Origin: a virus
DNA length: 28,334 nucleotides
Reading direction: 5' to 3' (one strand)
IMG/VR virus record: IMGVR_UViG_3300031623_000037
Span: 1-28,334 of that record
Every line of letters begins with the position of its first letter. Within the stretch, counting starts at the first letter, position 1. Made by a program: the position numbers and the translations under genes. Positions 12,401 through 27,847 of this stretch are shown here, one piece after another. The notes below the pieces were generated by a model. The model was given only the letters and a program-made list of their open reading frames with translations, did not search any database and had not been told where the DNA came from.

Positions 12401-15400
12401 ACCGTAGCAATAGAGTATGAAGGTTCTCTTGGGTTTATTCCAGAACTTGAAGATGAATCAACAGTGACTACATATGGAAACATTTATAAATTTGTTAGTG
12501 TACGATTAGCATCTATTAATAATGTAAATGATAGTTTATCGTATAATGAATATAGAGATTCAAATTCTGCTATTAGTTTAGAAGGTGATAAAGTTTATGC
12601 AGATAATAACGCGGCATCACTTTGGAAAGTTTACGAAAAACACGACCCATATACTACGGTACAACGATTATCACCAGACACAGCCACAGCAGATCAGGAT
12701 TTTGGATATAAAATTATAGCACGTAATGATGGTAGAACAGTAATAATATCAGCACCTACAAAAGGACAAGGTACTGTTCACTTTATGTTTAGAAGAGAAG
12801 CAATCGCAGGTAATACTTTTGAATCTCAAAGTTCTGTAACAATGACAGAAAATAACGATAATACAAGTAAACTAGGTTATTCATTATCAATGAGTACAGA
12901 TGAGAATTTTGTAGTTGCTGGTGCGCCATATACAAATACACTAGGATCAGATGGCAGTACAAGATTTACAGATGCGGGATTAATTAAAATTTATGTTTGG
13001 AATCCAAGCACGTTCAAATATGGAATATTGGATACTATAACACCACCAACAGAAGCGGCATCGCAAAATTTTGGTTGGGCACATAAAATATGTGAACCTG
13101 GAGCAAGTTCAGGTAGAAGTACACCAACAAAATATCTTTTTGTATCAGCACCAGGAGTGAATACTAACGCTGGTGCAGTTTATATGTATGAATGGGGAAT
13201 TGGAGCAGACCTATCAACGTATGATACATGGACACAAAATTTAACTATTACTTCGGATGATCCAGGGTCGAGTAAACAATTTGGCTATCAAATAGAAGCA
13301 AATGATAATGGAGATATTCTTGCAATTAGTTCTAGATCACCAGGACAAGCAGGAAAAGTAGAAATTTATAAAAGAACATCGCAATCAAGTGATGATAGCG
13401 TACAACACGCATTTACTTTAGTACAAACATTAACAGGTACGGCATCAGATGGATCTAGTTTGAATACAGAATTTGGCTCATCACTAGCAATGACTAAAGA
13501 CGGAACTACTTTAATAATTGGTGCACCAGGATTAGATAAGTCTGAACAAGCAGATGCTGGTGCCATATATTATTATAAATGGGACGTTGATGGGGATTCA
13601 ACTCTTGCATATACGTTACAACAAACAATACAATCACCTGATGGTCAAACAAATATGCAATTTGGCAGTACACTTGATATAACTGATACAGGAAAAAGAT
13701 TAATAATTGGTGCACAAAAACTTGATAATACAAGAGAAATGAATTTTGATTTAGGTGCTACTACTTTTGATTTACAAGATACAAAAATTGTTGATGCTAA
13801 TATAGGATCAGGAGGAGCCTATACAGCTACTCTGTATGATACAAAATATGTTATAGATGATCGATTAGTTACTACTAGTGTAAGTGCAAATGATGATTTT
13901 GGAAAAGGTATTTGTGTTATAGATCAAACAGCATTTGTAGGTGCTCCAGATGACGATGGTAATGTAACTGCAGATGGTTCAACTAAAGTAAGCAACGATG
14001 GTACAGTTACTACATTTGATTTAACTAAAAATGATACGTATGCTTGGAAAGAAATTGCATCAGAAACTCCTTTAATTAATGAAGAAAGGATTGGTCAAGC
14101 ATTTATATTTGATTCAAGAACAAATAAAATTGTTGATTATCTTAGTTTATATGATCCAGTTAAAGGAAGAATTCTTGGAATAGCAGATAGAGAAATTAAT
14201 ATTAAAACAACATGGGATCCGGCAGTTTATAATGTTGGTCCAAAAGAAAATAATAAAACACCGTGGGGTGAAGAACATTTAGGTGAAACTTGGTGGGACT
14301 TATCAAAAGTTAAATGGATATGGTACGAACAAGGAGATCAAGAATTTAAAACAAACAATTGGGGTAAAGTATTTCCTGGCTCTTCAATTGACATATATGA
14401 ATGGATAGAATCAACATTATTGCCAAGTGAATGGAACATGACTGCTGTAACAACCACTAGTCAGAACGGAACGCCATATAATACTTCAGATTTAGAATAT
14501 ACTGTAAAACAAAAATATGATTCTCAATTAGATGGTTATATAAATTACTATTATTATTGGGTAAAAAATGCTGGAGTTTTACCTCAAAATAGTGTAGTTG
14601 ATAGAAAAAATACTACATCTTATATCTCAAATCTAATTACAAATCCTTTTGCTTCAGGAACGAAATATTTTTCTGTAACAGATACTAACAAATTAATAGT
14701 GAATAATGTTAAAAATAATTTAGTTAATAGTGATATAATATTAAGTGTTGATTATAAAACAAATACTTTAGATTCAGAACAACATTCGGTTTGGAAATTA
14801 TTCAAGGAAGGTGATAAAGATTCAAGACCAGATACCGGAATTGAAAATATTTGGTGGGATAGTTTAACTGGACAAAATTCTGTAGGTAACAAGGTACCTG
14901 ATATGAATTTAAGTGTTAATAAAAGATATGGAACAAGTATACGACCAAGACAAAGTTGGTATGTAAACAGATTTGATGCATTGAAAGAAATTATTGATTA
15001 TGCAAATACAATTTTAAAATCAAATCAATTAGCAAATACACTTAATTTAACTAATTTAAATTCTTTTGATCCAGAGCCAACAGCACAAAGTTTAGAGTGG
15101 GACGCATCAATTGATACGTATGCAGAGTTAACTTATATTGATACTAAAGATTTATCAGGCACAGTAAATTATCTTGTTAAAGCAGACGAAAACATAAATG
15201 GATTTTGGGCGATATACCAATGGGATGGTGCAACATGGATGAGAACAAAAGTACAAACTTATAAAACATCTGCATTTTATTCGTATATTGATTGGTACAA
15301 CGCTGGAACAACAGTAGATACAAAAATTGATAAACAAGTAACTTATCAATACGAATTAGATTCATTAAGTGTTGAAATTGGAAGTCATGCTAAAGTTACA

Positions 15401-18400
15401 TCAGCTGATACAAGTGGATGGAAAATATTTCAATATACTGCAAATGGTTGGGAAAATGTTGCAACACAAAATGGTACAATTAAATTATCAACAAAACTTT
15501 ATGATTATGCTTTAGATGATACCGGATTTGCAGGAGATGATGTTTTTGATGGGAATCTATTTGATCAAGAGCCAACATTAGAAACACGTAAAATTTTAAC
15601 AGCATTGAGAGATGACATTTTTATTGGAGACTTAAAAATTCATTACAATACATTATTTTTTACTGGCTTAAGAACAGTATTGTCAGAACAAACGTTTGTG
15701 GATTGGATGTTTAAAACATCATTTGTTAATATTAAGAGTTCTGTTAGAGCATTAGCTCAACGAAAAACTTATACAACTGGCAAAGATGCTTATATTGAAA
15801 ATTATATAAATGAAGTTAAACCTTTTCATACAAAATTAAGAGAATATAAGTTAGGTTATACATCAACAGATACACAAAATGGAATTAATACAGATTTTGA
15901 CAATCCTACTTTTTATGATTCTAATGAAAGTAAAATTAGAAGTATTAATGTAACAAGTGATACTACAAAATTAACAGAATATCCTTGGAGAATGTGGAAT
16001 GATTATCATAAAAAACACGTAGCATCAATTACAGTTACATCAGCAGGATCGGGATATACAACTGCACCAACAGTAACTATACTTGGTGGTACAACAGGAA
16101 GTACAGGCCCATTCCAACTATATGATACTGCGGCATCAGGAGTAAGCTCGGGATCATTAGGATATTATTATCCTTTATATACATCAGAAGCACAGGCTAA
16201 AGTTGCTGATTCACAAAACAGTGGAGCAGGTACAGTAAGAGAATTTACGTTTGTAAACTACACAGGTACATTTTATCAACCAATTTCGCATACAACATAT
16301 AATCAAACAACAAAGTCAGGAACGTATAAAATGTATACAACACCTGATACTACTAACGCAACAGCCATAGCAATTATTAAAAATGGTTTGGTATCGTCAA
16401 TTACTGTAACAGGAATCGGAGCAAATTATACGTCAACACCACTTGTTGTAATTACAGGTGGAGGTACAGACGGAGGAACGCCATCAGATTCTGCCAAAGC
16501 ATATGCAAATTTAGGAAATGATCTTGTAAGAGATTTTGATATGACTATGAGATTCGATAGAATCTCTTCTACATCGTCGGTTGTAGATTGGACAGCAAGT
16601 ACGTCATATGCATATGGACAATTAATTAGATATAATAATGAGCTTTATAAAACGACTAAAGCACTTACAACAGGAACAACATTTAGTAAAACTAATCTTT
16701 ATAAATTAACAGGAGCAGAAAGAAAAGTAACTGCAACTGATAGAATTAAAGGTATGTATACACCCACTTCGGGTATGCCAGGAATTGAACTTTCACAATT
16801 AATGGATGGAGTTGATTATGGTGGAACAATGGTTACAGGATTATTATTCTCTGAAGGACAAGGATGGGATAAACAAGGATGGTACGATTTTCCTTGGGAC
16901 AATTATGGAGCGTCAACTGTTATATCTTTTATAGCAGACGGATCAACTAGAACATATACTTTTAGTTCAGCACCAGCAAAAGTTTATCAGGTATATGTTG
17001 CAGGAACAAAAACAACAGATGTTTTTAGAGGTGACGGAACAACAACAACATTTACTTTGAGCACAACACCAGACGAAAACGCTCTTGTAGAATTTATGCC
17101 ATTTGATGATGACGGGGTATTAACACCAACAGATGATAAAACTTTAGATTCTATTGTTAAAGGTGGATTATTTAATACAGCATTAGGTACAGCACCATCT
17201 GATATATTAATAGAAGGTGATGAGTTTATTTCACCAGAAACTTCATATGCACCTGAAGAAGCAGTTCCAGGACAATTATTTGACACGTTAGATATTAAAG
17301 TTTATACGTCACCTGAATCGGGAATACCATTTATACAACGAAAAAATTATATAGGTGATGCCAATACAACTACGTTCTCAATGGGACAATATCCAGGCAC
17401 ATTAGGATCTGTAATTGTAACTGTAGATAAAGTAGTTAAAAAAATTACAACTCATTATACAATTAATGTTGCAAATAAAACAATAACATTTGGCACAGCA
17501 CCAGGAAATTATTCAGTAATATCAATTAGAAGTTTTGCAATATCTGGAGAAAATTATAGAGTGTTAGATACGTATACAGGAGATAGTTCAACAATTGAAT
17601 TTACAACGTCAACAAGAGAGAATTTTAATTTAGATTCAAGTAATTCACAACTTTATATTACAGTAAACGGAGTACCAAATACATCTTATACAACAACGTC
17701 AACAGCAAACACAATTGTTGTTACATTTAGTTCTGCCCCAACGGCAAATGCATTAATTCAAGTTGCTGGATTCAATCAAACAACGGCAACAAGAGCATAT
17801 GCTTCTATTAGATCTGAAGCTGTACAATATGCAAGTGGTACAAACAGATATACTTTAACATATCCACCAGGGTCAGTTGGACCATATTCAGGATTAACAA
17901 TAATTGAAGTTAATGGAAAAGTTTTAAGAGGACCAGACAATACTTATTATACAGGTGATGGTAGCACATTTACATATGGAGTTGTATCAGGATTAGGAGA
18001 TGACTCAACAGTTGACCCTTCAAAAACAATTACAAATGCAAATGAAGTTCAGGTTTTTGTAAATGGAACAGAGAAAAATCTAAACACACATTACACGGTT
18101 GATGTAGGAAATCAAAATATAGAATTTGTTACAGATTCAGTACCAACAGTAACAGACGTAATTTGCATTTCAACTTTAGTTGACAACCATTACTATAATG
18201 AAGGCACTGATATTATATTAGATCCAACACAAATTGCAAGTGATGGATATACTTTAAGCGGTGGTGATTATATGACTGTAACAACATTTAATAATTCACT
18301 TGGAATGAAACAGAGACGTGAAGTATTAGAAGGTACAACAGATGGAATACTTAAATTAAGATTTAATCCGTTGTCATCTGAATATGTGTTTGTTTGGGTT

Positions 18401-19192
18401 AACGGAGAAACCTTAATACAAAATTATGATTATACAATATCAGGAAACACAATTACTGTTGTTAGCCAAACATTAATACAAACAGATAGAATTGATGTAA
18501 TGTATTTTGCAGGTGATTCTAATGTGGGTGCAACAGGATTTAGAATTTTTAAAGATATGTTGAATAGAACATTTTATAAACGAATTAGTTCAACAGCAAC
18601 AACACAACTTGATCAAGATTTATTTGAAAGTGATAAAACAATTACAGTAGCAGATGGTACGGTACTTCCGACGCCAAATTCAAATACTCCTGCTGTAATT
18701 TTTATAGATAAAGAAAGAATTGAATACTTTACAAAAGACGGAGATACTCTAGGACAATTAAGAAGAGGAACTCTAGGAACAGGAATTAAGGTGCACAGAG
18801 GTGGTACAAATGTCGTAGATGCCAGCTCAACACAAACAGTCCCTTATGCCGACACAGTATATACTGACACCGCAACAGGTGACGGTAGTACAGTCGCATT
18901 TACGACAACACAAACCATAACCTCAGCTAGTCAATTAGACATATTCATTGGTGGCCAACGATTGTTGTTGACTAGCGAGGACGGTTCAACTATTAACTAC
19001 TCTGCATCTAGTACTACGGTGACTTTAAGTGTAGCACCAGCAGACGGAACGCAGGTTAAAATATTACATAAGAAAGGACAGGTCTGGTATACAGGAGCAG
19101 ACGGTAATCCATCAAATGGCAAAGGATTACAAGCTTCTGCAACAGCACAAGCAAAATTCATAGGAGTGGAGCCAACAAATGCACCTGAATAA
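6410..19192 (+). CDS. Giant multidomain baseplate/appendage structural protein in the gp7 position
   Basis: One unbroken frame encodes 4,260 residues, about four times T4 gp7. The N-terminus (RSIAHLPAFYRTDTNHRFL, then LDKLINYREYYWLPEGPNSV) resembles, from memory, the large gp7-position structural proteins of marine T4-like phages. Modules in order: a cupredoxin-like domain at about 195-292 with H226, C279, H282 and M285; a CBM5/12-like segment at about 1658-1705; seven FG-GAP-like repeats at about 2095-2520; aromatic repeats near 2930-3030 (GFWAIYQWDGATW and GWKIFQYTANGW); two ITVT..G..YT repeats near 3205 and 3330; a second CBM-like segment near 3394; and from about 3500 an array of fibre-like GDGST..F repeats, ending with an LGQLRRGTLGTG segment at about 4112. 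Position after gp6 suggests a wedge protein extended outward with ligand-binding modules. GC content rises towards the 3' end. Weak AGGA at 6401-6404 precedes the ATG. The gp7 assignment rests mainly on position. Confidence 0.8.
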   Translation: MADKEINALSNEEIVVQDGTTLRRSIAHLPAFYRTDTNHRFLSSTIDPLIQKGSLERLDGWVGKLDAYTRQASDVYIPAVNEDRKAYQLDPTVTYIDQDTSSINPEDRVKFTGTYDDYINQLKYFGAPVDNHDRLNKEVTYSWNPAVDLDKLINYREYYWLPEGPNSVVIDSVGPTASTEIDVGVVTHDGSTVRAYVFGNKPTEQNPKLILYRGNTYKFIIGATSHPFWIMTEPYRSGLSADESTSTIYTSGVTNAGTDSGTVTFTIPTDAPDVLYYQCGNHDSMHGILQIDTISSTTKINVESEIKNTKNYSLRTLNLSNGMKIKFGSNVTDEITYKDKEFYVEGVGDQITLTNVENLITPESYATETTILYDSIAYDSRPYAKAFYRPETKDYITIKRDSRDQNAWSRYNRWFHRSVIETISSINGYTPTLDETDRAKRPIIEFDSGLALYNHGTIAKNSVALVDTVTTDAFSTVVGSTGYIIDGRSLADGMRVIFLTDLDATVKNKIYTVNFVSGGGSALSIALTEASDSAPADNESVFVEFGTNNQGKTYSYDSSTTAWTVGQTKTTINQQPLFELWDDNEIAFSDTTTHASTSFTGATVFNYKISSTATTDTVLGLKVKYNTINNVGDIVFETDTTSGTFTYKSNDIKYTKNYASGHLHYTTGASTHNNKSAWLKRTNESKQRVVRTFIVDKLEKQLFPIDFYKESHSLSDLEISIIVNGNKKVLTTDYTLVDGTTNKYVKFVKELTVGDQIKILGYSTIKKVDGKGIYEVPENLSINSLNSVLGEFTYGQISNHVKDIVEKNSDVIGVYPGSSNLRDIPSAILKGGTIQQHTGSLVPAIFGLIDRDANLISALDYANSEYQKFYDSFLTHAMSTAYEGVVADRVDEILVAIGKGKTNTFPFYYEDMVGYGENYSLRKYTVEDSSETEYAIDSLQDMTTPSNRAMYVYKNDVQLVLDTEYTVSTTDDSINITATLVVGDIIKIRDYSDTTGSFIPPTPTKLGIYPKFKPETITDDTYVTSISVIVGHDGSRRKTYGDYRDDLILELEKRIYNNIKTVYDSTLLDPNDIIPSAFKSTEYTINEVDGVLGPDFYTWAGKHGVQYITNTTYDSSNSFTWNYASSTDILNAEKMPGHWRGIYNYFYDTDRPHTHPWEVAGHSEKPSDWETLYGTAPYTSGNTVMWEYLAAITGRYSKPSLTDYIPVDASGNLLDPLGAKIIKDFGWPNKNADWKFGDQASSETAWRKSSAYPFSVTKLMALCKPAKFFGLFFDNSRLTKNISNNLVDKDTGIRQKLSTAKYHLESISSVRQITAGYQPWIVNYLISRNLDPATFFYNKMKQLNVQLAYKLGGFTDKNNIKILTDSTSPGSTAGSQFIPDENYKILFRTSNPVNSFDYSGILIEKNTDLSVDGSTLIGGYKVLGYNTIKPFFKFYKPIKATTTSIIETVDVRVLEYPRYESTLTTIPYGHVFVTIQEVADFILGYGEYLESQGFTFDKFSGQLKEIINWRTSVKEFLYWTTQGWAAGSAITISAGADGFTLDTKNSIVGQLKNLTGGYTVLDSTGKTIETNKISTKRLGKTFDLSIKDEETGLYNITLNTVQKEHILIFDNKTVFSDILFDTVSGFRQERLKIVGWKTAGWNGDFHAPGFVFDAAQVSYWIQNTDYKIGDTIEYQSKFYVAKINHNSGSTFVTSSWMLKNSKPSAQLIPSFDYKIAQFNDFYDLETNNFDESQQSLAQHLIGYQSRDYLENLFVNDISQYKFYQGYIREKGTQNAIDKLLKAKFEDEDINIDLYPEWMIRKGEFGNANAIQNIQMALDDSKFTSSHQSIELLDNTNDPFNWVRSLSIYQSNFYTNPVEYIASTTFAKHDYSTEGVDRDTVQVYKTAGYPRLSQVQHTAYNVSNLLNLNVNLIKANDLIWIANKTNNDWDVQRVTPAGFKIATLKSINDATQLEITFTSSHTFSAGTTTTTADYMAIANAQSTVLNAVYEIKEVINSNTVAIEYEGSLGFIPELEDESTVTTYGNIYKFVSVRLASINNVNDSLSYNEYRDSNSAISLEGDKVYADNNAASLWKVYEKHDPYTTVQRLSPDTATADQDFGYKIIARNDGRTVIISAPTKGQGTVHFMFRREAIAGNTFESQSSVTMTENNDNTSKLGYSLSMSTDENFVVAGAPYTNTLGSDGSTRFTDAGLIKIYVWNPSTFKYGILDTITPPTEAASQNFGWAHKICEPGASSGRSTPTKYLFVSAPGVNTNAGAVYMYEWGIGADLSTYDTWTQNLTITSDDPGSSKQFGYQIEANDNGDILAISSRSPGQAGKVEIYKRTSQSSDDSVQHAFTLVQTLTGTASDGSSLNTEFGSSLAMTKDGTTLIIGAPGLDKSEQADAGAIYYYKWDVDGDSTLAYTLQQTIQSPDGQTNMQFGSTLDITDTGKRLIIGAQKLDNTREMNFDLGATTFDLQDTKIVDANIGSGGAYTATLYDTKYVIDDRLVTTSVSANDDFGKGICVIDQTAFVGAPDDDGNVTADGSTKVSNDGTVTTFDLTKNDTYAWKEIASETPLINEERIGQAFIFDSRTNKIVDYLSLYDPVKGRILGIADREINIKTTWDPAVYNVGPKENNKTPWGEEHLGETWWDLSKVKWIWYEQGDQEFKTNNWGKVFPGSSIDIYEWIESTLLPSEWNMTAVTTTSQNGTPYNTSDLEYTVKQKYDSQLDGYINYYYYWVKNAGVLPQNSVVDRKNTTSYISNLITNPFASGTKYFSVTDTNKLIVNNVKNNLVNSDIILSVDYKTNTLDSEQHSVWKLFKEGDKDSRPDTGIENIWWDSLTGQNSVGNKVPDMNLSVNKRYGTSIRPRQSWYVNRFDALKEIIDYANTILKSNQLANTLNLTNLNSFDPEPTAQSLEWDASIDTYAELTYIDTKDLSGTVNYLVKADENINGFWAIYQWDGATWMRTKVQTYKTSAFYSYIDWYNAGTTVDTKIDKQVTYQYELDSLSVEIGSHAKVTSADTSGWKIFQYTANGWENVATQNGTIKLSTKLYDYALDDTGFAGDDVFDGNLFDQEPTLETRKILTALRDDIFIGDLKIHYNTLFFTGLRTVLSEQTFVDWMFKTSFVNIKSSVRALAQRKTYTTGKDAYIENYINEVKPFHTKLREYKLGYTSTDTQNGINTDFDNPTFYDSNESKIRSINVTSDTTKLTEYPWRMWNDYHKKHVASITVTSAGSGYTTAPTVTILGGTTGSTGPFQLYDTAASGVSSGSLGYYYPLYTSEAQAKVADSQNSGAGTVREFTFVNYTGTFYQPISHTTYNQTTKSGTYKMYTTPDTTNATAIAIIKNGLVSSITVTGIGANYTSTPLVVITGGGTDGGTPSDSAKAYANLGNDLVRDFDMTMRFDRISSTSSVVDWTASTSYAYGQLIRYNNELYKTTKALTTGTTFSKTNLYKLTGAERKVTATDRIKGMYTPTSGMPGIELSQLMDGVDYGGTMVTGLLFSEGQGWDKQGWYDFPWDNYGASTVISFIADGSTRTYTFSSAPAKVYQVYVAGTKTTDVFRGDGTTTTFTLSTTPDENALVEFMPFDDDGVLTPTDDKTLDSIVKGGLFNTALGTAPSDILIEGDEFISPETSYAPEEAVPGQLFDTLDIKVYTSPESGIPFIQRKNYIGDANTTTFSMGQYPGTLGSVIVTVDKVVKKITTHYTINVANKTITFGTAPGNYSVISIRSFAISGENYRVLDTYTGDSSTIEFTTSTRENFNLDSSNSQLYITVNGVPNTSYTTTSTANTIVVTFSSAPTANALIQVAGFNQTTATRAYASIRSEAVQYASGTNRYTLTYPPGSVGPYSGLTIIEVNGKVLRGPDNTYYTGDGSTFTYGVVSGLGDDSTVDPSKTITNANEVQVFVNGTEKNLNTHYTVDVGNQNIEFVTDSVPTVTDVICISTLVDNHYYNEGTDIILDPTQIASDGYTLSGGDYMTVTTFNNSLGMKQRREVLEGTTDGILKLRFNPLSSEYVFVWVNGETLIQNYDYTISGNTITVVSQTLIQTDRIDVMYFAGDSNVGATGFRIFKDMLNRTFYKRISSTATTQLDQDLFESDKTITVADGTVLPTPNSNTPAVIFIDKERIEYFTKDGDTLGQLRRGTLGTGIKVHRGGTNVVDASSTQTVPYADTVYTDTATGDGSTVAFTTTQTITSASQLDIFIGGQRLLLTSEDGSTINYSASSTTVTLSVAPADGTQVKILHKKGQVWYTGADGNPSNGKGLQASATAQAKFIGVEPTNAPE
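16021..16455 (+). repeat. Two diverged copies of an ITVT..G..YT repeat module inside the giant gene
   Basis: The first copy (about 16027-16095) encodes ITVTSAGSGYTTAPTVTI and the second (about 16399-16460) encodes ITVTGIGANYTSTPLVVI. Each is followed by a Gly/Thr-rich run. They are separated by about 100 codons containing a tyrosine-rich insert. The copies are clearly related at protein level but not identical in DNA, so the duplication is old. Confidence 0.6.
16930..19100 (+). repeat. Array of fibre-like beta repeats at the C-terminus of the giant protein
   Basis: Roughly six diverged modules of about 70-100 residues share this pattern: a Gly-Asp-Gly-Ser/Thr turn and an aromatic strand, then a strand with V.V.G or I.I.G, a tyrosine (HYT, DYT or SYT), a short I.F or V.F strand with an Ala-Pro turn, and a final hydrophobic strand. 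Examples begin at FRGDGTTTTF, YIGDANTTTF, YTGDSSTIEF, YTGDGSTFTY and ATGDGSTVAF. This looks like a repetitive beta-structured shaft or knob. Borders of single modules are approximate. Confidence 0.6.
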
Positions 19193-19928
19193 ATACAATA
19201 AGATGACTGACGAAAACAAATCAAACGAGCATAAAAAAGAAGTACAAAAGCCACAAGATCAAACTGGAGTTTGTATGACTGGGCATATTAAAATATTTGA
19301 TCCAGAAACTGGAGAAGTAATAGTAGATAAAAGAAATGCAATTCACTATGAAAATATGTCACAAGGCTTGGCAAACAGTTTAGCAAACAAAACAACAGGA
19401 TTTGTACACGAAATGGCATTTGGTAATGGTGGAACATCTGTTGATCCAACAGGAATTATAACCTACCTAACGCCAAATTCAACAGGTACAAATGCAACAT
19501 TATATAATCAAACATATTATAAAGTAATAGATGATAACTCATCTACAAATAAAGATACTACAAGAAACAAAATGGAAGTACGCCATACAGCAGGGAACAA
19601 ATATACTGATATAGTTTGTACTTGTACTTTAGATTATGGAGAGCCAACAGGACAAGCGGCTTTTGATAATACAGCAAATTTTAATGGTGATTATGTGTTT
19701 GATGAATTAGGATTAAAAAGTTGGGAAGGAACAGAAAACGGTTCAACTAATAAATTGTTGACACACGTTATATTCCACCCAGTACAAAAATCATTAAACA
19801 GATTAATTCAAATTGATTATACTTTAAGAGTACAATCATTAACAACATTTACTGAAACAAGTTCAACTGCGGCGAGTACTTCAAATACAATAAGCGGAAC
19901 AACTTCAGGTAGTAACACAGGGTACTAA
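19179..19928 (+). CDS. Conserved-looking tail/baseplate-associated structural protein
   Basis: A protein of 249 residues from the ATG at 19179, or 241 from the ATG at 19203. The earlier start overlaps the giant gene by 14 bases and has AGGAG at 19162-19166, 12 bases upstream. The later start begins MTDENKSNEHKK and follows the giant gene's stop by 10 bases; I cannot decide between them. The core has HIKIFDPETGEVIVDKRNAI, then HYENMSQGLANSLANK and FVHEMAFGNGGTSVDPTG, a style I associate with small virion proteins beside the baseplate genes of marine myophages. The C-terminal 28 residues are Ser/Thr-rich and end in NTGY, like the end of the gp6-like protein. No enzymatic motif is visible. A role in the outer wedge or fibre attachment is inferred from position only. 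Confidence 0.75.
   Translation: MHLNKYNKMTDENKSNEHKKEVQKPQDQTGVCMTGHIKIFDPETGEVIVDKRNAIHYENMSQGLANSLANKTTGFVHEMAFGNGGTSVDPTGIITYLTPNSTGTNATLYNQTYYKVIDDNSSTNKDTTRNKMEVRHTAGNKYTDIVCTCTLDYGEPTGQAAFDNTANFNGDYVFDELGLKSWEGTENGSTNKLLTHVIFHPVQKSLNRLIQIDYTLRVQSLTTFTETSSTAASTSNTISGTTSGSNTGY
19188..19195 (+). promoter_or_regulatory. AATAAATA at the end of the giant gene
   Basis: The motif overlaps the giant gene's TAA stop and lies 7 bases before the ATG at 19203. If it is a T4-type late promoter, transcription would start almost at that ATG, leaving nearly no leader. That weakens the case unless the upstream ATG is not used or the transcript is leaderless. Confidence 0.25.
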
Positions 19929-19931
19929 TAA

Positions 19932-21437
19932 ATGGCATACACAGTAAACAAAACAGATAGTTCAGCGTCACCAAATTTATATACGGTGCAAGATTCTGTA
20001 GTTAATACAGAAACAGATCTATCTCTTATTGGAAAAGGTTATGCAGGGTATGGAGAAAGTATTGCTGAAAACTTTTTACATTTATTAGAAAATTTTTCAA
20101 ATACAGCGGCACCAACAAAACCTATTATAGGACAGCTTTGGTATGATTCTGAAAATTCTAAATTAAAAGTTTATAATGGTACTAGTTTTCAAACTGCTGG
20201 AGGTAATGCACCATATCAATCACTAGCACCGGCAAGTCTTGCACAAGGAGATATTTGGATAGATTCAGATACAGGACAACTTTTTTTTTATAATGGAAGT
20301 TCAAGTGTTTTAATTGGTCCTCCAGGTACAACAGGAAATACAAATGGATTTACATATGATTCAATTTTAGATTCAAGTGATGATACACAAAATATTACAA
20401 AATGGTATAATGACGGAAATTTAATTGCAATAATTTCAGAAGATACTTTTACACCAAAAGTTACTATATCAGGATTTGCAACTATTACAAAAGGAATAAC
20501 ACTTTCTACATCAATAACAGGTCTTAAATTTGCAGGTACAGCCTCAGATTCAGATGCATTAGGTGACATTAATTTTGCAAATTACTTAACGTCAAATGCA
20601 AACGATACAACATCGGGTACATTAGGTATAGTTAACGATTCGGGAATGACAGTTGGAGCAGATAGTGATTTATCAGTAACAGTTGATAGTACTGGGGTTA
20701 TATTTACAAACAACATACAAGACACAGATATTAGCTTTAAAGTTAATGATGGTGGTGCACCAAGTACAACTGTAATGACTATTGATGGTACAAATTCAAG
20801 AGTAGGTATTGGTACAACGTCTCCAACAGAAGCACTTGATGTTAGTGGTGTAATTAAGGCAACATCTTTTTCAGGAGCATTAACAGGAAACGTTACAGGT
20901 ACATTAACAGGAACATCAACATTAGACTTGCCATTAGCAGGTGGTACTATGACAGGTACATTAATATCTCGAGCAATAACACCAGCGGCAAATACAACAT
21001 ACGATATTGGAACATCACTATTAGGATATAACACAGTTTACGCAAAAGCAACATCGGCTCAATACGCTGATTTGGCTGAAAAATATACATCAGACTCTAA
21101 TTATGATATAGGTACAGTTGTTATATTTGGAGGAGATAAAGAAATTACACAATCAACAATAGCAGAAGATACAAGAGTAGCAGGAGTAATAAGTGAGAAC
21201 CCTGCATACTTAATGAATGATAAATCAGAAGGACAAGCAGTTGCACTTATAGGAAAAGTAAAATGTAGAGTGCATGGCAATATTAATAAAGGTGATCTTT
21301 TAACAACGTGTGGACAACATCCAGGATGTGCCAAAAAAGCATTTTCTCCAAAAATAGGATCTATTGTAGGAAAAGCAATGGAAGACTATAATGGATCACA
21401 AGAAAGTGTCATTTTAATAAGTGTAGGGAGACAATAA
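19932..21437 (+). CDS. Tail-fibre-like structural protein, paralogue 1, with C-terminal YADLAEKY domain
   Basis: A 501-residue protein and the first of three paralogues in the window. Residues 1-95 carry the shared N-terminal module (LIGKGYAGYGESIAENFLHL, LLENFSNTAAP, IGQLWYDSENSKLKVYNG). A second W/Y module follows at about 97-135 (QGDIWIDSDTGQLFFYNG). The middle has NANDTTSGTLGIVNDSGMTV and then short GNVTGTLTGT repeats and LPLAGGTMTGTL, typical of fibre shafts. From about residue 374 a distinct C-terminal domain begins (YADLAEKYTSD, then TRVAGVISENPAYLMN, ending ESVILISVGRQ) that recurs in the protein at 26201. This domain recalls the Peptidase_G2-type C-terminal chaperones of phage appendages (YAEYFE and LGVVS..P signatures), but that link is tentative. 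The start follows the upstream stop by three bases (TAATAAATG). Likely an appendage protein binding near the baseplate through its N-terminus. Confidence 0.82.
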   Translation: MAYTVNKTDSSASPNLYTVQDSVVNTETDLSLIGKGYAGYGESIAENFLHLLENFSNTAAPTKPIIGQLWYDSENSKLKVYNGTSFQTAGGNAPYQSLAPASLAQGDIWIDSDTGQLFFYNGSSSVLIGPPGTTGNTNGFTYDSILDSSDDTQNITKWYNDGNLIAIISEDTFTPKVTISGFATITKGITLSTSITGLKFAGTASDSDALGDINFANYLTSNANDTTSGTLGIVNDSGMTVGADSDLSVTVDSTGVIFTNNIQDTDISFKVNDGGAPSTTVMTIDGTNSRVGIGTTSPTEALDVSGVIKATSFSGALTGNVTGTLTGTSTLDLPLAGGTMTGTLISRAITPAANTTYDIGTSLLGYNTVYAKATSAQYADLAEKYTSDSNYDIGTVVIFGGDKEITQSTIAEDTRVAGVISENPAYLMNDKSEGQAVALIGKVKCRVHGNINKGDLLTTCGQHPGCAKKAFSPKIGSIVGKAMEDYNGSQESVILISVGRQ

Positions 21438-21452: not shown

Positions 21453-22841
21453 ATGGCTTATACAATAAACAAAACAGATGGTACAGTAGTCGCTACAATT
21501 ACAGACGGCACAGTTAATAATGGAACAAGTTTAACACTTTTTGGAAAAAGTTATTCAGGATTTGGTGAATTATTAAACGAAAACCTTGTAAAATTATTAG
21601 AAAATTCAGCATCAACATCCACACCAACAACACCATTAAAAGGTGAGTTATGGTTTGATACATCAAACGCACTATTAAAAGTATACGACGGTTCAGCATT
21701 TAAACCAGCTGGCGGAAGTAAGTCAGCATCAGCGGCACCATCATCTCCAGGAGCAGGAGATCTTTGGACAGATTCAGATGATGATCAACTTTATGTTTAT
21801 ACTGGTAGTGCTTGGCAATTAGTTGGTCCAGTTTATACATCAGGGCAAACATTATCAGGTTGGAAAATTGAAACACTTGGTAGTGCAGGTGGAAATAAAG
21901 CTGTTTCTTCAATGTATGCAGGTAATATAAGAGTTTGTATACTTTCAAAAGAAACATTTACACCTTCAGTTTCACAAACAGGATTTGCTTCAATTAAAGC
22001 AGGATTAACATTAAATTCAACTCTAGGTGCAGTATTTGACGGAACAAATACACAGGCATCTGCCATTGACATATCAGGAACAACAGATACTTCAGGTACA
22101 GTTATTGCAGGTGGAAATTTTTTAAGATCAAATGCGGCAGATACAACAACAGGTGCATTAACAATTGATACAGACACAGGATTAATAGTTGGTGACGCAC
22201 AAGAATTAACAGTAACAGTTACAAGCAATGATGTAACAATTGCACAAACATCACAAGATAAAGATTTAAAATTTACAGTAAATGACGGTGGAGTTACTAA
22301 AACAGCTTTACAATTAACAGGTGCAGACGGTGGCATTGATATGACAGGTGACCTTACAATTACAGGTAACTTGAACGTTAGTGGTGCATACAACTATACA
22401 TCATCTAGCATTGTACAACACGCAGATACATTTTTAAAAGTAAATGCTGGAGGCGGTGAAGCAGACTCAGGACTTATAGTTGAGACAAGTGATACTAATG
22501 ATGCAAGAATATTTTATGATGTATCAGAGAACTTTTGGTCAGCAGGCGAAAATGCTTCATATTCACAAGTAATTAGATTAGCTGATGCAGTTGCAGATGG
22601 TAATGCCGCTAAAGCAAAAGTATTAAAAACATCAGCGGCAGGACTAGTAACAGTAACTAACGTTTCGTTAGCGGCTGTAGGTTCAGCAATCACAACTAGT
22701 GATACTTCAAGTGTAAGTGTTCCAACAACAGGACAGGTTGCTACGTATGGAAATCTTTGGGGTGGAGCAACTAAAACAGTCACAACCGCCGCACCAACAG
22801 GTGGTGTGAACGGAGACATACATTTTAAGTATGTTAATTAG
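21453..22841 (+). CDS. Tail-fibre-like structural protein, paralogue 2, with a different C-terminus
   Basis: A 462-residue protein sharing its first 300 residues or so with the proteins at 19932 and 26201: LFGKSYSGFGELLNENLVKL, LLENSASTSTP, KGELWFDTSNALLKVYDG, then AGDLWTDSDDDQLYVYTG and SNAADTTTGALTIDTDTG. Its C-terminal third lacks the YADLAEKY domain of the other two. Instead it has DLTITGNLNVSGAYNYTSSS, then DARIFYDVSENFWSAGE, an Ala/Val/Thr-rich stretch and a short end (GVNGDIHFKYVN). This pattern of a constant N-terminus and an exchanged C-terminus suits an appendage family whose N-terminal part docks on the virion while the distal part varies. It lies between paralogue 1 and the Hint-bearing adhesin. 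No Shine-Dalgarno at a usable distance. Confidence 0.8.
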   Translation: MAYTINKTDGTVVATITDGTVNNGTSLTLFGKSYSGFGELLNENLVKLLENSASTSTPTTPLKGELWFDTSNALLKVYDGSAFKPAGGSKSASAAPSSPGAGDLWTDSDDDQLYVYTGSAWQLVGPVYTSGQTLSGWKIETLGSAGGNKAVSSMYAGNIRVCILSKETFTPSVSQTGFASIKAGLTLNSTLGAVFDGTNTQASAIDISGTTDTSGTVIAGGNFLRSNAADTTTGALTIDTDTGLIVGDAQELTVTVTSNDVTIAQTSQDKDLKFTVNDGGVTKTALQLTGADGGIDMTGDLTITGNLNVSGAYNYTSSSIVQHADTFLKVNAGGGEADSGLIVETSDTNDARIFYDVSENFWSAGENASYSQVIRLADAVADGNAAKAKVLKTSAAGLVTVTNVSLAAVGSAITTSDTSSVSVPTTGQVATYGNLWGGATKTVTTAAPTGGVNGDIHFKYVN

Positions 22842-22855: not shown

Positions 22856-24286
22856 ATGCCTACTACTACAAAAACTTTTATATATACAGGAACAATAAAC
22901 GAATTAGTTATACCAGCTGGTACAACTCATATCGACGTGCACCTTTGGGGAGGTGCTGGCGGTGGAGGCGGTGCAGACGCAGGTGGACCAGGTGGTTATG
23001 GAGCCGCTGGCCATTATGTAACTGCAACAAGTATAAGCATGGCATCTAACATTGGTGATACCATACAAATCGCTGTAGGTGGTTCAGGCGGTGGTGGAGC
23101 ATCAGGTGGTGGAGCACCAGGTGGTGGAAACGGAAAAAGTAAAGAAGCATATTCAGGTGGAAACGGTGGTAACGCAGGACCAACTCCTTATTCAGGTGCT
23201 GGCGGCGGTGCTGGTGGTGCCACAGTAGTAATAGTGGACGGAACAGCAGTCGCAGTCGCTGGAGGCGGTGGCGGAGGTGCTGGTTCTGGAGCAGGTTCAA
23301 ATGGTGGTTCAGGTCTTAATACAAATAGTGCAACAGCACATACACCCGCAACATTAGGAGAAGAAGGTAAAGATCACTCCGGAGATGGTGGCGGTGGTGG
23401 AGCCGGTGGCGGAGGAGTAGCTGGCGGAAAATCAGGTAATGGTGGAAATGGAGACCAAGGTGGTTCCGGAGGTTATGCAGGAACAAACAATGCCGCAGGT
23501 GGAACAGAAGATAATGGATCAGGTGTAACGCCAGGCGGAACTGGTAGTGCTTATTATTCTCCAGGAGTTGCAGTAGGTGGAAGTCCGGGTGGTTCAGGTG
23601 CAAACGGAAGAGCAGTAGTTATTTTTACAGTTGGTGTACAAGCTAGTGTAAAAGTAGGAGGAGCATGGAAAGATGTTTCTAACATTTACACAAAAGTTTC
23701 AGGAGCATGGAAAGAAATTACAGCCGCTTACGTAAAAGTATCAGGCGCTTGGAAGGATATGTTTAATTCAGGATTAAATTTTACAGCAACAGCTTCAGGA
23801 TTTGGAGATACAAACGGAGGAAACTCATCAGGATCATATGGTACAGGTGGTGGTGGTGGTTGTTTCATAGCAGGCACATTAGTTACTATGGCAGATGGTT
23901 CGCAAAAAGCAGTTGAACTTGTTGATATTAGAGATGAAGTAGCAGTTGGTGGATTTGTATTTGCAACAGGTAAGTTTTTAATTGATGATTTATTTGAGTA
24001 CAAAGGTATTAAAGTTTCAGGTACACACATGGTTAAAGAAGATGGTAGTTGGACAAGAGTAGCAGACAGTAAGTACGGAAAATCATTAGGAGATGATGAA
24101 CATATAGTTTACGTATTTGGTTCTGAATTTAGAAGAATTATGATTAATGGTATAGAGTTTACTGACTACTTTGAAATAGATGAAAAACAAAAATTATTAT
24201 CTATTGGTGAGAAATTTTTTGGTATTTGGCGTGAACATGATAGACAAACACAGGTCGATGATGTTAAAATACTGAATAATGATTGA
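22856..24286 (+). CDS. Glycine-rich adhesin-like fibre protein with C-terminal Hint (hedgehog/intein) domain
   Basis: 476 residues in three parts. Residues 1-30 are a small beta segment (TKTFIYTGTINELVIPAGTT). Residues about 30-262 are dominated by Gly with Ala/Ser (LWGGAGGGGGADAGGPGGYG, then many GG/GGG runs), like glycine-rich tail-fibre tips such as the T-even gp38 adhesin class. Residues 266-303 hold three 14-residue repeats around KVSGAWK. After a Gly/Ser linker, a Hint domain starts at C336: GCFIAGTLVTMADGSQKAVE is intein block A-like, and S388-G389-T390-H391 is the block B-like site with the conserved His. The segment RIMINGIEFTDYFEID follows at about 427-443. The C-terminus (ILNND) lacks the His-Asn plus Cys/Ser/Thr end needed for splicing, so cleavage at Gly335-Cys336, releasing the adhesin part, is the more likely activity (inference). 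The stop overlaps the next gene by 8 bases. Confidence 0.88.
   Translation: MPTTTKTFIYTGTINELVIPAGTTHIDVHLWGGAGGGGGADAGGPGGYGAAGHYVTATSISMASNIGDTIQIAVGGSGGGGASGGGAPGGGNGKSKEAYSGGNGGNAGPTPYSGAGGGAGGATVVIVDGTAVAVAGGGGGGAGSGAGSNGGSGLNTNSATAHTPATLGEEGKDHSGDGGGGGAGGGGVAGGKSGNGGNGDQGGSGGYAGTNNAAGGTEDNGSGVTPGGTGSAYYSPGVAVGGSPGGSGANGRAVVIFTVGVQASVKVGGAWKDVSNIYTKVSGAWKEITAAYVKVSGAWKDMFNSGLNFTATASGFGDTNGGNSSGSYGTGGGGGCFIAGTLVTMADGSQKAVELVDIRDEVAVGGFVFATGKFLIDDLFEYKGIKVSGTHMVKEDGSWTRVADSKYGKSLGDDEHIVYVFGSEFRRIMINGIEFTDYFEIDEKQKLLSIGEKFFGIWREHDRQTQVDDVKILNND
23651..23764 (+). repeat. Three tandem 42-base repeats encoding the KVxGAWK motif
   Basis: Copies begin at 23651, 23693 and 23735 and encode KVGGAWKDVSNIYT, KVSGAWKEITAAYV and KVSGAWKDMF. 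The period is 14 residues, with the third copy incomplete. They sit between the glycine-rich adhesin part and the Hint domain, and may form a short beta structure or a spacer. Confidence 0.8.
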
Positions 24287-24980
24287 TAAGAGTTTTTATT
24301 ACGGCCAACAAGGCGAATGTTTCCAACAACTAGACAAGTATTTTCAAGAAATAGCACACGAATTTAATTCACAATCTAACAAAGTATGGTTAAGTCCAGA
24401 AGACTTCTCTAATAGTGTTAGAGGAGATCCTAAAGACTATACAGACAAAGATAATTTTTATCCAGGCGACACCGATCGCAGAGGAGATTATGTTCAAGGC
24501 GAATGGAAAGCATTAGGTATAAGTTCAGGAACATATGAAGGACAAAGTTTTAATGAATATCCTATGTTGTACAGTATTTTAAGAAAATTTCCTTATAAAA
24601 CCAATGTTGCATTTATGACAGTAGGTGCAGATACAAAAATTGGTAATCACAAAGACAGCGAAGGTGGTTGGAGATATCAATTGTGCATAGATGATGGTGG
24701 CGGAACAGACAGTGGTATGTATTATATGGATTTAAAAACTACAAAAAAAGCACTACACATTTGGAAAACTGGAGATTCATTTGTTTTTCAACCAGATTTA
24801 CAATTGCATAATGGATATAATAATAATTCAGGTGAAAGAACTACACTATTAATTGACTTTTATAAAGAATCATTATACACTAAAGAGAAGTTTGAAGCTT
24901 ATTACCAACACTACAACGATGAGTTTGAAGGTTTGGAAAATTTAGCAAATGTATATGAATCAAGAAAACAAAAAATATAA
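24279..24980 (+). CDS. Aspartyl/asparaginyl beta-hydroxylase-like 2-oxoglutarate Fe(II) oxygenase
   Basis: A 233-residue protein with the iron- and 2-oxoglutarate-binding set of the double-stranded beta-helix oxygenases. H124-K125-D126 (in KIGNHKDSEGGWRYQL) gives the HxD pair, H177 (QLHNGYNN) the distal histidine, and R187 (SGERTTLLIDF) the residue expected to bind the 2-oxoglutarate carboxylate. The W-x-x-G-D-S-F-V-F segment before H177 and the H-N-x(9)-R ending fit the aspartyl/asparaginyl hydroxylase family better than prolyl 4-hydroxylases. The predicted reaction is hydroxylation of an Asp, Asn or similar residue with O2 and 2-oxoglutarate, giving succinate and CO2; the substrate is unknown. 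Its start overlaps the Hint gene by 8 bases and its end overlaps the SDR gene by 32 bases, so the three are probably co-translated. Modification of a fibre protein or of a host surface component is possible but not shown. Confidence 0.82.
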   Translation: MIDKSFYYGQQGECFQQLDKYFQEIAHEFNSQSNKVWLSPEDFSNSVRGDPKDYTDKDNFYPGDTDRRGDYVQGEWKALGISSGTYEGQSFNEYPMLYSILRKFPYKTNVAFMTVGADTKIGNHKDSEGGWRYQLCIDDGGGTDSGMYYMDLKTTKKALHIWKTGDSFVFQPDLQLHNGYNNNSGERTTLLIDFYKESLYTKEKFEAYYQHYNDEFEGLENLANVYESRKQKI

Positions 24981-25533
24981 AATAGGAATCATAGGTCACA
25001 CTAAAGGAATAGGTAAAGCTATTGCAGATTTATTTAAAGAAAAACAATTTGAAGTTATTGGTTTAAGTAGATCTAATGGATACGATTTAAGTAAAAATCA
25101 ACAAAATATAATAGATAAAATTAATCAGTGTGAGTATGTTGTTATTAATGCTTACGCAGGTAATAATCAATTAAGGTTATTACAAAAAATATATAAAAAA
25201 TATCAAAATCAAAATAAAAAAATTGTTGTAATTACAAGTACGTCCGGAACATTAATCGGTATTGATAATACACACAACACTCCTACATATAAAGAATATT
25301 GTCGTTCAAAAAAAGAATTAATAGAATATATCGAAAACGTTCAACAAGAATTAGTTATGAAACCGTTATCTATATTTGATATATGTCCTGATACAGTAGA
25401 TACTGAAATGAGTGCAGGGTTGTGGGAAGAATGGCCAAAACTAAAAGCAGATGAAGTTGCAGAAGCAGTACGTTATTGCTTTGAATCTAAATTTAATATA
25501 AACAAAATAGTATTACAAAAAAATGCAAGTTAG
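24949..25533 (+). CDS. Short-chain dehydrogenase/reductase (SDR)-like protein
   Basis: A 194-residue Rossmann-fold protein. The nucleotide-binding motif G16-x3-G20-x-G22 lies in IGIIGHTKGIGKAIADLF, an NAYAG segment (67-71) stands where the family has NNAG, and the catalytic pair is Y117-x3-K121 (YCRSK). Ser97 or Ser99 in ITSTSG is the likely catalytic serine. A CPDTVDTEM segment at about 146-154 follows, in the place of the PG..xT region after the active site. It is shorter than classic SDRs (about 250 residues), mainly at the C-terminus, but the core is complete. It probably binds NAD(P)(H); the substrate cannot be read from sequence. The ATG at 24949 overlaps the oxygenase gene by 32 bases; another in-frame ATG at 24955 would shorten it by two residues. 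It overlaps the next gene by 11 bases. Confidence 0.8.
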   Translation: MYMNQENKKYKIGIIGHTKGIGKAIADLFKEKQFEVIGLSRSNGYDLSKNQQNIIDKINQCEYVVINAYAGNNQLRLLQKIYKKYQNQNKKIVVITSTSGTLIGIDNTHNTPTYKEYCRSKKELIEYIENVQQELVMKPLSIFDICPDTVDTEMSAGLWEEWPKLKADEVAEAVRYCFESKFNINKIVLQKNAS

Positions 25534-25990
25534 ACTTTGGGATAGAGAACAGGACTACAACACACTAGTCAAGTGGTGGACTGATTGGAAATTTGGAACA
25601 GTACCAAAAGAATGTCTTCCACCTGATGGAATTATGGTTGAAAATGATGGTGAACCTATATGTGCAGGTGGATTGTATATAGGAGTAGGAACACAATTTT
25701 CTTTTATGGAATGGGTTGTAGCAGATAAACGTGCAAATAAAAGAGATATACATAAAGCCTTAAAAATGTGTATTGATGCTATAATGGAAATTGCAAAATC
25801 TAAGGGTATGAAATTAGTATATACTGTTACAAAGGAAAAAGAATTGCATAAAAGATATGTTAAATTTCACAATATGATACTTGCAGAAACCAGTGTTAAA
25901 ACGTTTTTACGTGATTTTGATGGTAATTATTCTAAAGATTTACATTGGATATCAGATGACGAGCAATTCAAGAAGCAACGTAAAGACTAA
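25523..25990 (+). CDS. GNAT-like N-acetyltransferase-related protein
   Basis: A 155-residue protein with the layout of a small GNAT fold: RLWDREQDYNTLVKWWTDWK at the N-terminus, then two strands (GIMVENDGEPICAGGLYIGV), a central strand FSFMEWVVADKR, a helix (IHKALKMCIDAIMEIAKSKG) and LVYTVTKEKELHKRYVKFHN. The acetyl-CoA pyrophosphate loop, normally Q/R-x-x-G-x-G/A, is degenerate here (KRANKRDIHKA), so cofactor binding is uncertain. From memory, similar short proteins with a WW..WKF start occur beside fibre genes in marine T4-like phages. It closes the three-enzyme cassette and overlaps the SDR gene by 11 bases. The family call is moderately sure, the activity unsure. Confidence 0.65.
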   Translation: MQVRLWDREQDYNTLVKWWTDWKFGTVPKECLPPDGIMVENDGEPICAGGLYIGVGTQFSFMEWVVADKRANKRDIHKALKMCIDAIMEIAKSKGMKLVYTVTKEKELHKRYVKFHNMILAETSVKTFLRDFDGNYSKDLHWISDDEQFKKQRKD

Positions 25991-26200: not shown

Positions 26201-27847
26201 ATGACCTACGAGATCAATAACACATTTGGAACTAAATTAGTTTCATTAGCAGACGGTACATTAGATACTACTACCACGGATCTTGCACTTTTTGGAAAAG
26301 GATATGCAGGATTTGGTGAGAGACTAAATGAAAATTTTGTAAAACTTTTAGAAAATTTTAATAATACATCAGCTCCTTCTAACAAAATTCAAGGACAACT
26401 TTGGTACGATAAAACAAATAATCAAATGAATGTTTATACAGGATCTAAATGGAAACCTGTAGGTGGTGCGGCAACGTCATCAACACAACCAGCTAACGCA
26501 GTTGCAGGTGATCAATGGTTTGACACAACAAATTCTCAACTTTATGTGTACACAGGTTCAGCATGGACATTAATTGGACCAACAACAGTAGCAGGATCAG
26601 GTGTAACTCAAATAGTTTCTGAAGTAATAGAAGACGATACAGGTGTACAAAAATCAATATTAAAAGGTGTTGTAAACGATTCGGTTGTGTTTATTAGTTC
26701 ACCAGTTGCATTTACACCTTCGACAACAGAAACAAATGCGGCGGCTTTAAGAACAGCAGGCTTTACATCAATATTAAAAGGTATTCAACTATCTTCAGCA
26801 ATATCATCGAATAAATTTCAAGGAACAGCCTCAGATGCTGACGGATTAGGAGCAGTAATAGCCAGTTCCTATTTAAAATCAAATGTAAATGACACAACAT
26901 CAGGATCGTTAGGTGTATTAAATGATTCAGGAATAACAATTGGTGCTGGATCAGATGCTACATTTACAATAGTAAGTGACAATTTAACTATTGCAAACAC
27001 AACATCAAACAAAGATATTATTTTTAAAGTAAATGACGGTGGTGTAACAACTACACTAATGACCATGGACGGTGACACAGGATTACTGGAACTGCCATCA
27101 GTGGGAGACCTGAGGGTAAAAGGAAACTTAACTGTTGACGGGACACAGACAACAATCAATACATCTACTTTAACAATTGAAGACAACATTATAGAATTAA
27201 ACAGAAACATTTCTGGAAATGCAGGTATGCCAAGTTTCACTGGACTAAAAGTTAACAGAGGTGAAACGTCATCTGCAACTGAACAAGATTTATATTGGGT
27301 TTGGGATGAAACATTTGCAGATGACGGAACAACCCTTTATGGAAATTCAGGCGGTGCCTGGACAGCATTTAAATCAGGGGGCGGCCAAAATGAATTATCA
27401 GCGGCCACATTAGTTGATGTACGAGCAAACGTAGTTCATGCAACTACTACAACGGCAATGTATGCGGATTTGGCAGAAAGATATGAGTCAGATATGCAAT
27501 TAGAAACAGGTGACGTTGTAATGTTAGGTGGTTCTGCAGAAGTAACTAAATGTAATAAAGAATTATGTGATCAAGTGTTTGGAGTTGTAAGTGATTCTCC
27601 AGCATTTTTAATGAATGCTCAAGCAGGAAATAATGATTCACATCCAATGATTGCTCTAAAAGGAAGAGTATTAGTTAAAATTGCAGGTGAAGGTGATGCC
27701 GGAGCTCGTGTAGTTTCAGCTGGAAACGGAGCAGGAAAAGTAGTAAATATTGATGAATGCACAGCGTTTAATGTAATAGGTAGGTTGGTAAAAGATAAAT
27801 ACTCACAGCAAACAGAATTGACGGAATGTGTAATAGGAGTTAAATAG
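26201..27847 (+). CDS. Tail-fibre-like structural protein, paralogue 3, with C-terminal YADLAERY domain
   Basis: A 548-residue protein and the third paralogue. The N-terminal module reads LFGKGYAGFGERLNENFVKL, LLENFNNTSAP, QGQLWYDKTNNQMNVYTG, then AGDQWFDTTNSQLYVYTG. The middle matches the others (NVNDTTSGSLGVLNDSGITI). It then has LTVDGTQTTINTSTLTIEDN followed by IIELNRNISG, a module I associate with marine phage fibre-like proteins. From about residue 420 the YADLAERYESD domain reappears (FGVVSDSPAFLMN, ending LTECVIGVK). Compared with paralogue 1 its C-terminal domain has different cysteines (in KCNKELCDQ). A 60-base stretch at 27061-27120 is 53% GC and uses CTG codons rare elsewhere in the window. 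The gene lies 8 bases after the small ORF, without its own clear ribosome binding site. Confidence 0.83.
   Translation: MTYEINNTFGTKLVSLADGTLDTTTTDLALFGKGYAGFGERLNENFVKLLENFNNTSAPSNKIQGQLWYDKTNNQMNVYTGSKWKPVGGAATSSTQPANAVAGDQWFDTTNSQLYVYTGSAWTLIGPTTVAGSGVTQIVSEVIEDDTGVQKSILKGVVNDSVVFISSPVAFTPSTTETNAAALRTAGFTSILKGIQLSSAISSNKFQGTASDADGLGAVIASSYLKSNVNDTTSGSLGVLNDSGITIGAGSDATFTIVSDNLTIANTTSNKDIIFKVNDGGVTTTLMTMDGDTGLLELPSVGDLRVKGNLTVDGTQTTINTSTLTIEDNIIELNRNISGNAGMPSFTGLKVNRGETSSATEQDLYWVWDETFADDGTTLYGNSGGAWTAFKSGGGQNELSAATLVDVRANVVHATTTTAMYADLAERYESDMQLETGDVVMLGGSAEVTKCNKELCDQVFGVVSDSPAFLMNAQAGNNDSHPMIALKGRVLVKIAGEGDAGARVVSAGNGAGKVVNIDECTAFNVIGRLVKDKYSQQTELTECVIGVK

Follow-up and report, generated by a model that had tools for sequence, protein, structure and literature searches.

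The described Hint domains closest to the one reported here are the BIL domains, the Hog part of hedgehog proteins and the class 1 inteins. Cleavage is the usual outcome for BIL domains lacking a +1 nucleophile, hedgehog performs the first N-S shift only, and class 1 inteins have Asn, Gln or Asp as their last residue (PMC7664689); for Asp as an accepted terminal residue, PMC4031507 cites Amitai 2004. Two other kinds of module also resemble it in their position: the PT-HINT of polymorphic toxins, a releasing module close to the C-terminus, and the Peptidase_G2/S74 chaperones, C-terminal modules of phage fibres which are thought to cleave themselves.

The locus presented here lies in a stretch of viral DNA of 28,334 nucleotides (IMG/VR record IMGVR_UViG_3300031623_000037), referred to below as the window. 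Its features are the following:

22856–24286, plus strand: the whole ORF, a glycine-rich fibre-like protein of 476 aa with a C-terminal Hint domain (from the sequence; the neighbours are fibre-like genes)
22856–23860, plus strand: N-terminal part, residues 1-335, glycine-rich, with three VKVSGAWK-like repeats and the end GTGGGGG
23858–23863, plus strand: predicted scissile junction Gly335-Cys336 (from the sequence; Cys336 is intein residue 1 in structure alignments)
23861–24166, plus strand: Hint core, residues 336-437 (AlphaFold with Foldseek/VIA)
24017–24028, plus strand: block B, S388-G-T-H391, with the catalytic His (conservation; NEQ068 block B match)
24158–24175, plus strand: block G equivalent, F435-T-D437-Y-F-E, with Asp at the terminal-Asn position (structure alignment; FTDYF conserved)
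24167–24283, plus strand: conserved C-terminal tail, residues 438-476, a predicted helix (conservation, AlphaFold model), whose last codons overlap the start of the next gene
24279–24980, plus strand: Asp/Asn beta-hydroxylase-like 2-oxoglutarate oxygenase (PF05118, E 3e-8), overlapping the Hint ORF
24949–25533, plus strand: short-chain dehydrogenase-like protein (PF00106, E 9e-9)
25523–25990, plus strand: cassette partner, a putative GNAT-like protein of 155 aa, phrog_17252 (linkage to Hint; GNAT assignment weak)

With BIL domains the phage domain shares the Hint fold, Cys1, the block-B His and the lack of a +1 Cys, Ser or Thr, and it is likewise a Hint domain without a +1 nucleophile in a non-intein host protein. 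BIL2 from T. thermophila is its best structural match (Z 12.7), and the C. thermocellum BIL aligns with Z 12.0. Unlike BIL domains, the phage Hint has Thr-Asp-Tyr for His-Asn and a conserved helical tail, is always placed at the C-terminus of virus proteins and is linked to a GNAT-like gene; it is not of BIL type A, which ends in His-Asn, type B having another end. The hedgehog Hog is similar in fold (1at0, Z 10.7), in its Gly-Cys-Phe junction and in its C-terminal position without splicing, but no sterol-recognition region was recognised in the phage domain, and the Pfam Hint module PF01079 matched two of 15 family members with a best E of 0.17. The special closeness to hedgehog proposed by an earlier, sequence-only reading of the window is not supported: BIL domains and inteins match equally well or better (Z 12.7 versus 10.7). 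Class 1 inteins ending in Asp have Cys1, the block-B His and the last Asp in common with the phage Hint, whereas the latter carries Tyr at +1 and Thr in the penultimate place and has no host-protein C-extein. The Peptidase_G2/S74 chaperones differ in chemistry, and their profile had no match on the 476-aa protein; the phage Hint is found also on non-fibre virion proteins. Finally, in contrast to PT-HINT, there is no toxin domain downstream in the chain and the partner is encoded separately.

Fold and active site of the Hint domain

In a search for Hint families, as suggested by the sequence-only reading, Pfam Hom_end_hint matched block A from profile position 1 with an E of 9e-4, below its gathering cut-off, besides the PF01079 matches given above. 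NCBIfam gave no match for the 476-aa protein. With nothing above threshold in either collection, the domain would escape annotation pipelines. Sequence searches against the PDB matched block B of the protein to the NEQ068 intein and the family's block A profile to PI-SceI (E 0.01-0.05 for the profile). With the structural models below, these matches show that the likeness to a Hint domain is not due to chance. The N-terminal part of the protein gave a weak Gly_rich_2 match as well as phrog_36019 and phrog_25859 over the VKVSGAWK repeats.

Structure prediction, proposed earlier as the test of the fold, returned the horseshoe of Hint domains. The first AlphaFold model was built from an alignment of 15 relatives and had a pLDDT of 75; the second, built from 33 relatives and including 12 residues of upstream sequence, had a pLDDT of 88 and a pTM of 0.81, and its five models were concordant (83-88). 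Both gave the same structural neighbours, namely BIL domains, inteins and hedgehog, with which the second model aligns at Z 9.4-12.7 across about 100-112 residues (Foldseek, VIA-align 2), and residue 13 of this model (Cys336) pairs with residue 1 of inteins. The predicted horseshoe, the N-terminal nucleophile Cys and the block-B His are all present, and residues 336-437 are, as modelled, a genuine Hint domain of a virus-only, intein-like type. A Hint domain at the end of the glycine-rich protein had thus been foreseen correctly, although not its extent: it had been given the last 141 residues, and the core stops at D437 and not at 476.

Two scans of IMG/VR returned 25 and 205 related stretches, from which 90 usable domains were obtained. 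The first residue is Cys and the block-B residue is His in every one of them (90/90 each), and neither residue was part of the patterns of the larger scan. Gly occupies the -1 position in 85/90. The Gly-Cys-Phe junction holds as first described, and so does the place of Cys336 (codon 23861-23863), which directly follows GGGGG and is the sole Cys of the protein, a single Cys being found also in 55 of the 77 5'-complete relatives. The block B of the sequence-only reading was right as to His391, but its naming as T390-H391 was not: the motif is S388-G-T-H391, that is, T-x-x-H with Ser, and this B:7 position is Ser in 86/90 domains and Ala in the other four.

At the other end of the domain the sequence is different from that of inteins. 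Thr436-Asp437-Tyr438 stands in the place of the intein His-Asn-(+1), and where inteins have Asn, Gln or Asp as the terminal residue the phage domain has Asp437. Residue 114 of the model (Asp437) is the last one aligned to residue 198 of Mxe GyrA, 440 of Mtu RecA, 125 of gp41-1, 137 of Npu DnaE and 454 of PI-SceI, which are the terminal Asn residues of these inteins. This equivalence was read from range ends, as the aligner gives ranges, and it recurs in many entries and with both models; when the profile was compared with that of the canonical tandem Hint described below, block A alone aligned, so the equivalence depends on structure. The sequence is in accord with it, the Hint of one phage (L017) ending in VYNFGTMNRRLLIDGITFTDY versus LYNFNVSNDNSYIADDYVVHNK in a canonical Hint from the same kind of phage. 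Phe-Thr-Asp-Tyr-Phe around Asp437 is invariant among the relatives, an invariance that is partly selected because the larger scan included this motif among its patterns. In place of a +1 Cys, Ser or Thr and a host C-extein there are Tyr438 and then a 39-residue tail conserved together with the Hint domain. The earlier statement that there is no His-Asn end is literally correct, but the end is not an open one, since Asp437 superposes on the terminal Asn, and the statement that there is no C-extein is not quite right, as 39 conserved residues follow Asp437. Of the intein catalytic machinery, the N-terminal half is intact and conserved, and a new sequence, itself invariant, has taken the place of the C-terminal half. 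The conserved Leu-Asn end of the Hint ORF may result from the overlap of its codons with the ATG of the partner gene, an overlap which is usual at the directly linked loci (L010, L017, L074, L088, L095).

Carrier proteins and the linked partner gene

The Hint domain terminates at least nine clusters of N-terminal parts without detectable mutual similarity. Besides the glycine-rich fibre, the carriers include a DUF4815 protein about 1,600 residues long, a glycine-zipper protein with a match to an internal virion family, and a number of long proteins that are uncharacterised. The domain is thus a mobile module, always found at the C-terminus of virus proteins. No full-length relative was found by sequence search in 50,697 GenBank phages, where the matches were limited to block A of ordinary inteins. 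Among genomes of bacteria and archaea a single contig, from a Verrucomicrobia metagenome bin, carried a relative; this contig is probably viral.

At 14 loci the Thr-Asp Hint stands behind another Hint of canonical type, which has His-Asn-Lys at its end and is recognised as intein-like by both Pfam and NCBIfam; in L059, L063, L074, L077, L078, L094, L211 and others the canonical domain ends in VVHNK and the Thr-Asp Hint follows immediately. One protein (L024:1-2358) has serial Hint domains with HN-K-(D)C junctions between them. Two adjoining genes in L103:5000-6500 have divergent Hint-like C-termini and similar IAQERAA leaders, one end being apparently Glu-Asn-Tyr and the other Leu-Asp-Tyr.

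More surprising than a Hint domain on a fibre is that it comes as one half of a pair. A homologue of the partner gene lies behind the Hint in 86/86 loci with enough sequence, and the Hint lies upstream in 78/78 loci of close partner-gene relatives with upstream sequence; the two contig sets overlap in part, and since closely related contigs share history these counts are not independent events. In 48 of the 86 loci the partner starts -32 to +15 nt from the Hint stop, and in the remaining 38, all of the window's clade, the two are separated by the oxygenase and dehydrogenase genes, an insertion confined to this clade. Among 18 larger records, all 15 that bear a Hint have exactly one Hint and one partner, and the three others have neither. 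Distances of the Hint and GNAT-like proteins are correlated (Mantel r 0.70, p 0.0005, n=70), to which shared phage ancestry contributes. The Hint and the GNAT-like gene are thus, judged by their linkage, a predicted two-gene mobile cassette of marine phages. A designed fusion of the two by readthrough or frameshifting, raised by the gene overlap, was rejected: the overlaps and gaps vary from -32 to +15, which is typical of ordinary translational coupling.

A near-identical fibre is found without the cassette in three close relatives. In L210 and L217 it has an unrelated helical C-terminus, and in L198 it has a canonical Hint together with the same helical end; all three lack the Thr-Asp Hint, the partner gene, the oxygenase and the dehydrogenase. 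The helical-looking module begins with (V/I)ICT in place of the Hint (L210:12681-14270, L217:12628-14034, L198:12666-14750), and no profile matched it.

The partner belongs to PHROG 17252, whose function is not annotated. Its motif pattern resembles that of GNAT acyltransferases, PF00583 matched three of 28 family members (best E 0.014, a weak match over profile positions 14-115 of 116), and one GenBank record names a relative an N-terminal acetyltransferase subunit. Taken together, this is suggestive of a GNAT-like protein, as far as sequence comparison goes. A PDB search with the partner protein returned nothing usable, and one weak phrog_308 match, which would have made it T7 gp13-like, was unsupported by hhalign. 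Distant relatives of the partner occur in Bacteroidetes phages without Hint, between virion genes; in L113-L117 their neighbours are a virion-like gene on one side and a glycine-zipper gene on the other.

Neither the fold nor the first chemical step is new. The open-access literature contained no account of phage virion proteins with a Hint at the C-terminus and none of a Hint-GNAT pair. In the literature searched, the subfamily with Thr-Asp-Tyr, its occurrence on many virion proteins of viruses only and its fixed partner gene appear undescribed.

Proposed processing and alternative explanations

The reading we favour, with a probability of about 0.62, is that of a mobile two-gene autoprocessing cassette, in which the Hint, as a BIL-like self-cleaving domain, would cleave at Gly335 and free the virion protein, and the GNAT-like protein would cooperate. 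Once the Hint is folded, Cys336 would attack the carbonyl of Gly335, and the N-S acyl shift would give a thioester, which water or some other nucleophile would then resolve, Asp437 perhaps serving as the base. The virion protein would be freed with a poly-Gly C-terminus, the other fragment being the Hint with its tail; splicing would not follow because there is neither a +1 Cys, Ser or Thr nor a His-Asn. The GNAT-like partner would then act on the Hint product or on the released end, which would explain its co-translation with the Hint. It is from the precedents of BIL domains, hedgehog and class 1 inteins that we infer the Gly335 thioester and the release of the virion protein, and the intact N-terminal catalytic half makes cleavage at G335/C336 the best candidate mechanism. 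Counted against this reading, whose evidence is drawn from sequence and predicted structure, are Ser at B:7 (Ala in 4/90) and the weak GNAT assignment. If it is true, a single self-cleaving module with its matched enzyme serves to complete widely differing virion proteins in many marine phages, and this would be a form of phage particle maturation undescribed in the literature searched; moreover, protein chemists would gain small Hint domains (about 102 residues) whose Thr-Asp end is unusual, for use in thioester ligation.

In an alternative explanation the thioester is not hydrolysed but passed on. GNAT enzymes couple thioester acyl groups to amines, and in a hedgehog-like ligation the Gly335 thioester would go to a specific amine or alcohol, the GNAT-like partner catalysing or preparing the transfer, so that the virion protein becomes covalently tagged or cross-linked. 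The constancy of this partner across unrelated virion proteins, the -1 Gly and C-F junction shared with hedgehog and an active site with the N-half intact and the C-half altered all speak for such ligation; however, no acceptor is known, the GNAT fold of the partner is putative, and the GNAT-like relatives beside virion genes of Hint-less Bacteroidetes phages may have an older, independent job. We regard this ligation as unlikely, and we give still less credit to a dedicated covalent virion maturation, in which the mobile Hint would form a thioester at the C-terminal end of any virion protein bearing it, and its cognate GNAT-like enzyme would pass this end to a specific amine of the particle or host and so yield cross-linked or tagged virions.

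Cleavage at two sites, as in BIL domains, is distinctly improbable. Here Asp437 would cyclise and cut Asp437-Tyr438 as well, leaving the fibre, a Hint of 102 residues and a peptide of 39. D437 occupies the place of the terminal Asn in the structure alignment, and class 1 inteins accept a terminal Asp (PMC7664689); against this, Thr stands in place of the penultimate His, and the conserved helical tail comes directly after D437 in the model. Moreover, Asp is slower to cyclise than Asn.

Decidedly improbable, too, is a self-removing intramolecular chaperone of the Peptidase_G2/S74 kind, by which the Hint would aid the folding of the fibre trimer and then leave. A Peptidase_G2 chaperone-cleavage domain is indeed present on the neighbouring fibre (19932-21437), and relatives bear other C-terminal modules at the same place of the fibre, but the Hint is also carried by non-fibre proteins, both internal-virion-like and DUF4815, and the constant GNAT-like gene would be left unexplained.

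That the domain is a non-catalytic relic, a decayed intein retained for binding or stability, is highly improbable: it has lost the His-Asn end and the +1 nucleophile, but C1 and the block-B His stay invariant even among sequences of about 45-50% identity, and the protein has no Cys other than C336; in a relic one would expect such residues to disappear.

The cassette of the window is surrounded by fibre-like genes with one N-terminus in common. Three of these are paralogous (19932-21437, 21453-22841 and 26201-27847), and the end of the last resembles that of the first, which carries the Peptidase_G2 domain. A single ORF of 4,260 aa (6410-19192) lies within a virion gene cluster. The window may derive from a large myovirus; a protein of 249 aa encoded at 19179-19928 has its nearest GenBank relatives, with 43-55% identity, in jumbo phages such as Phosso, Atu_ph07, CBB and 121Q.
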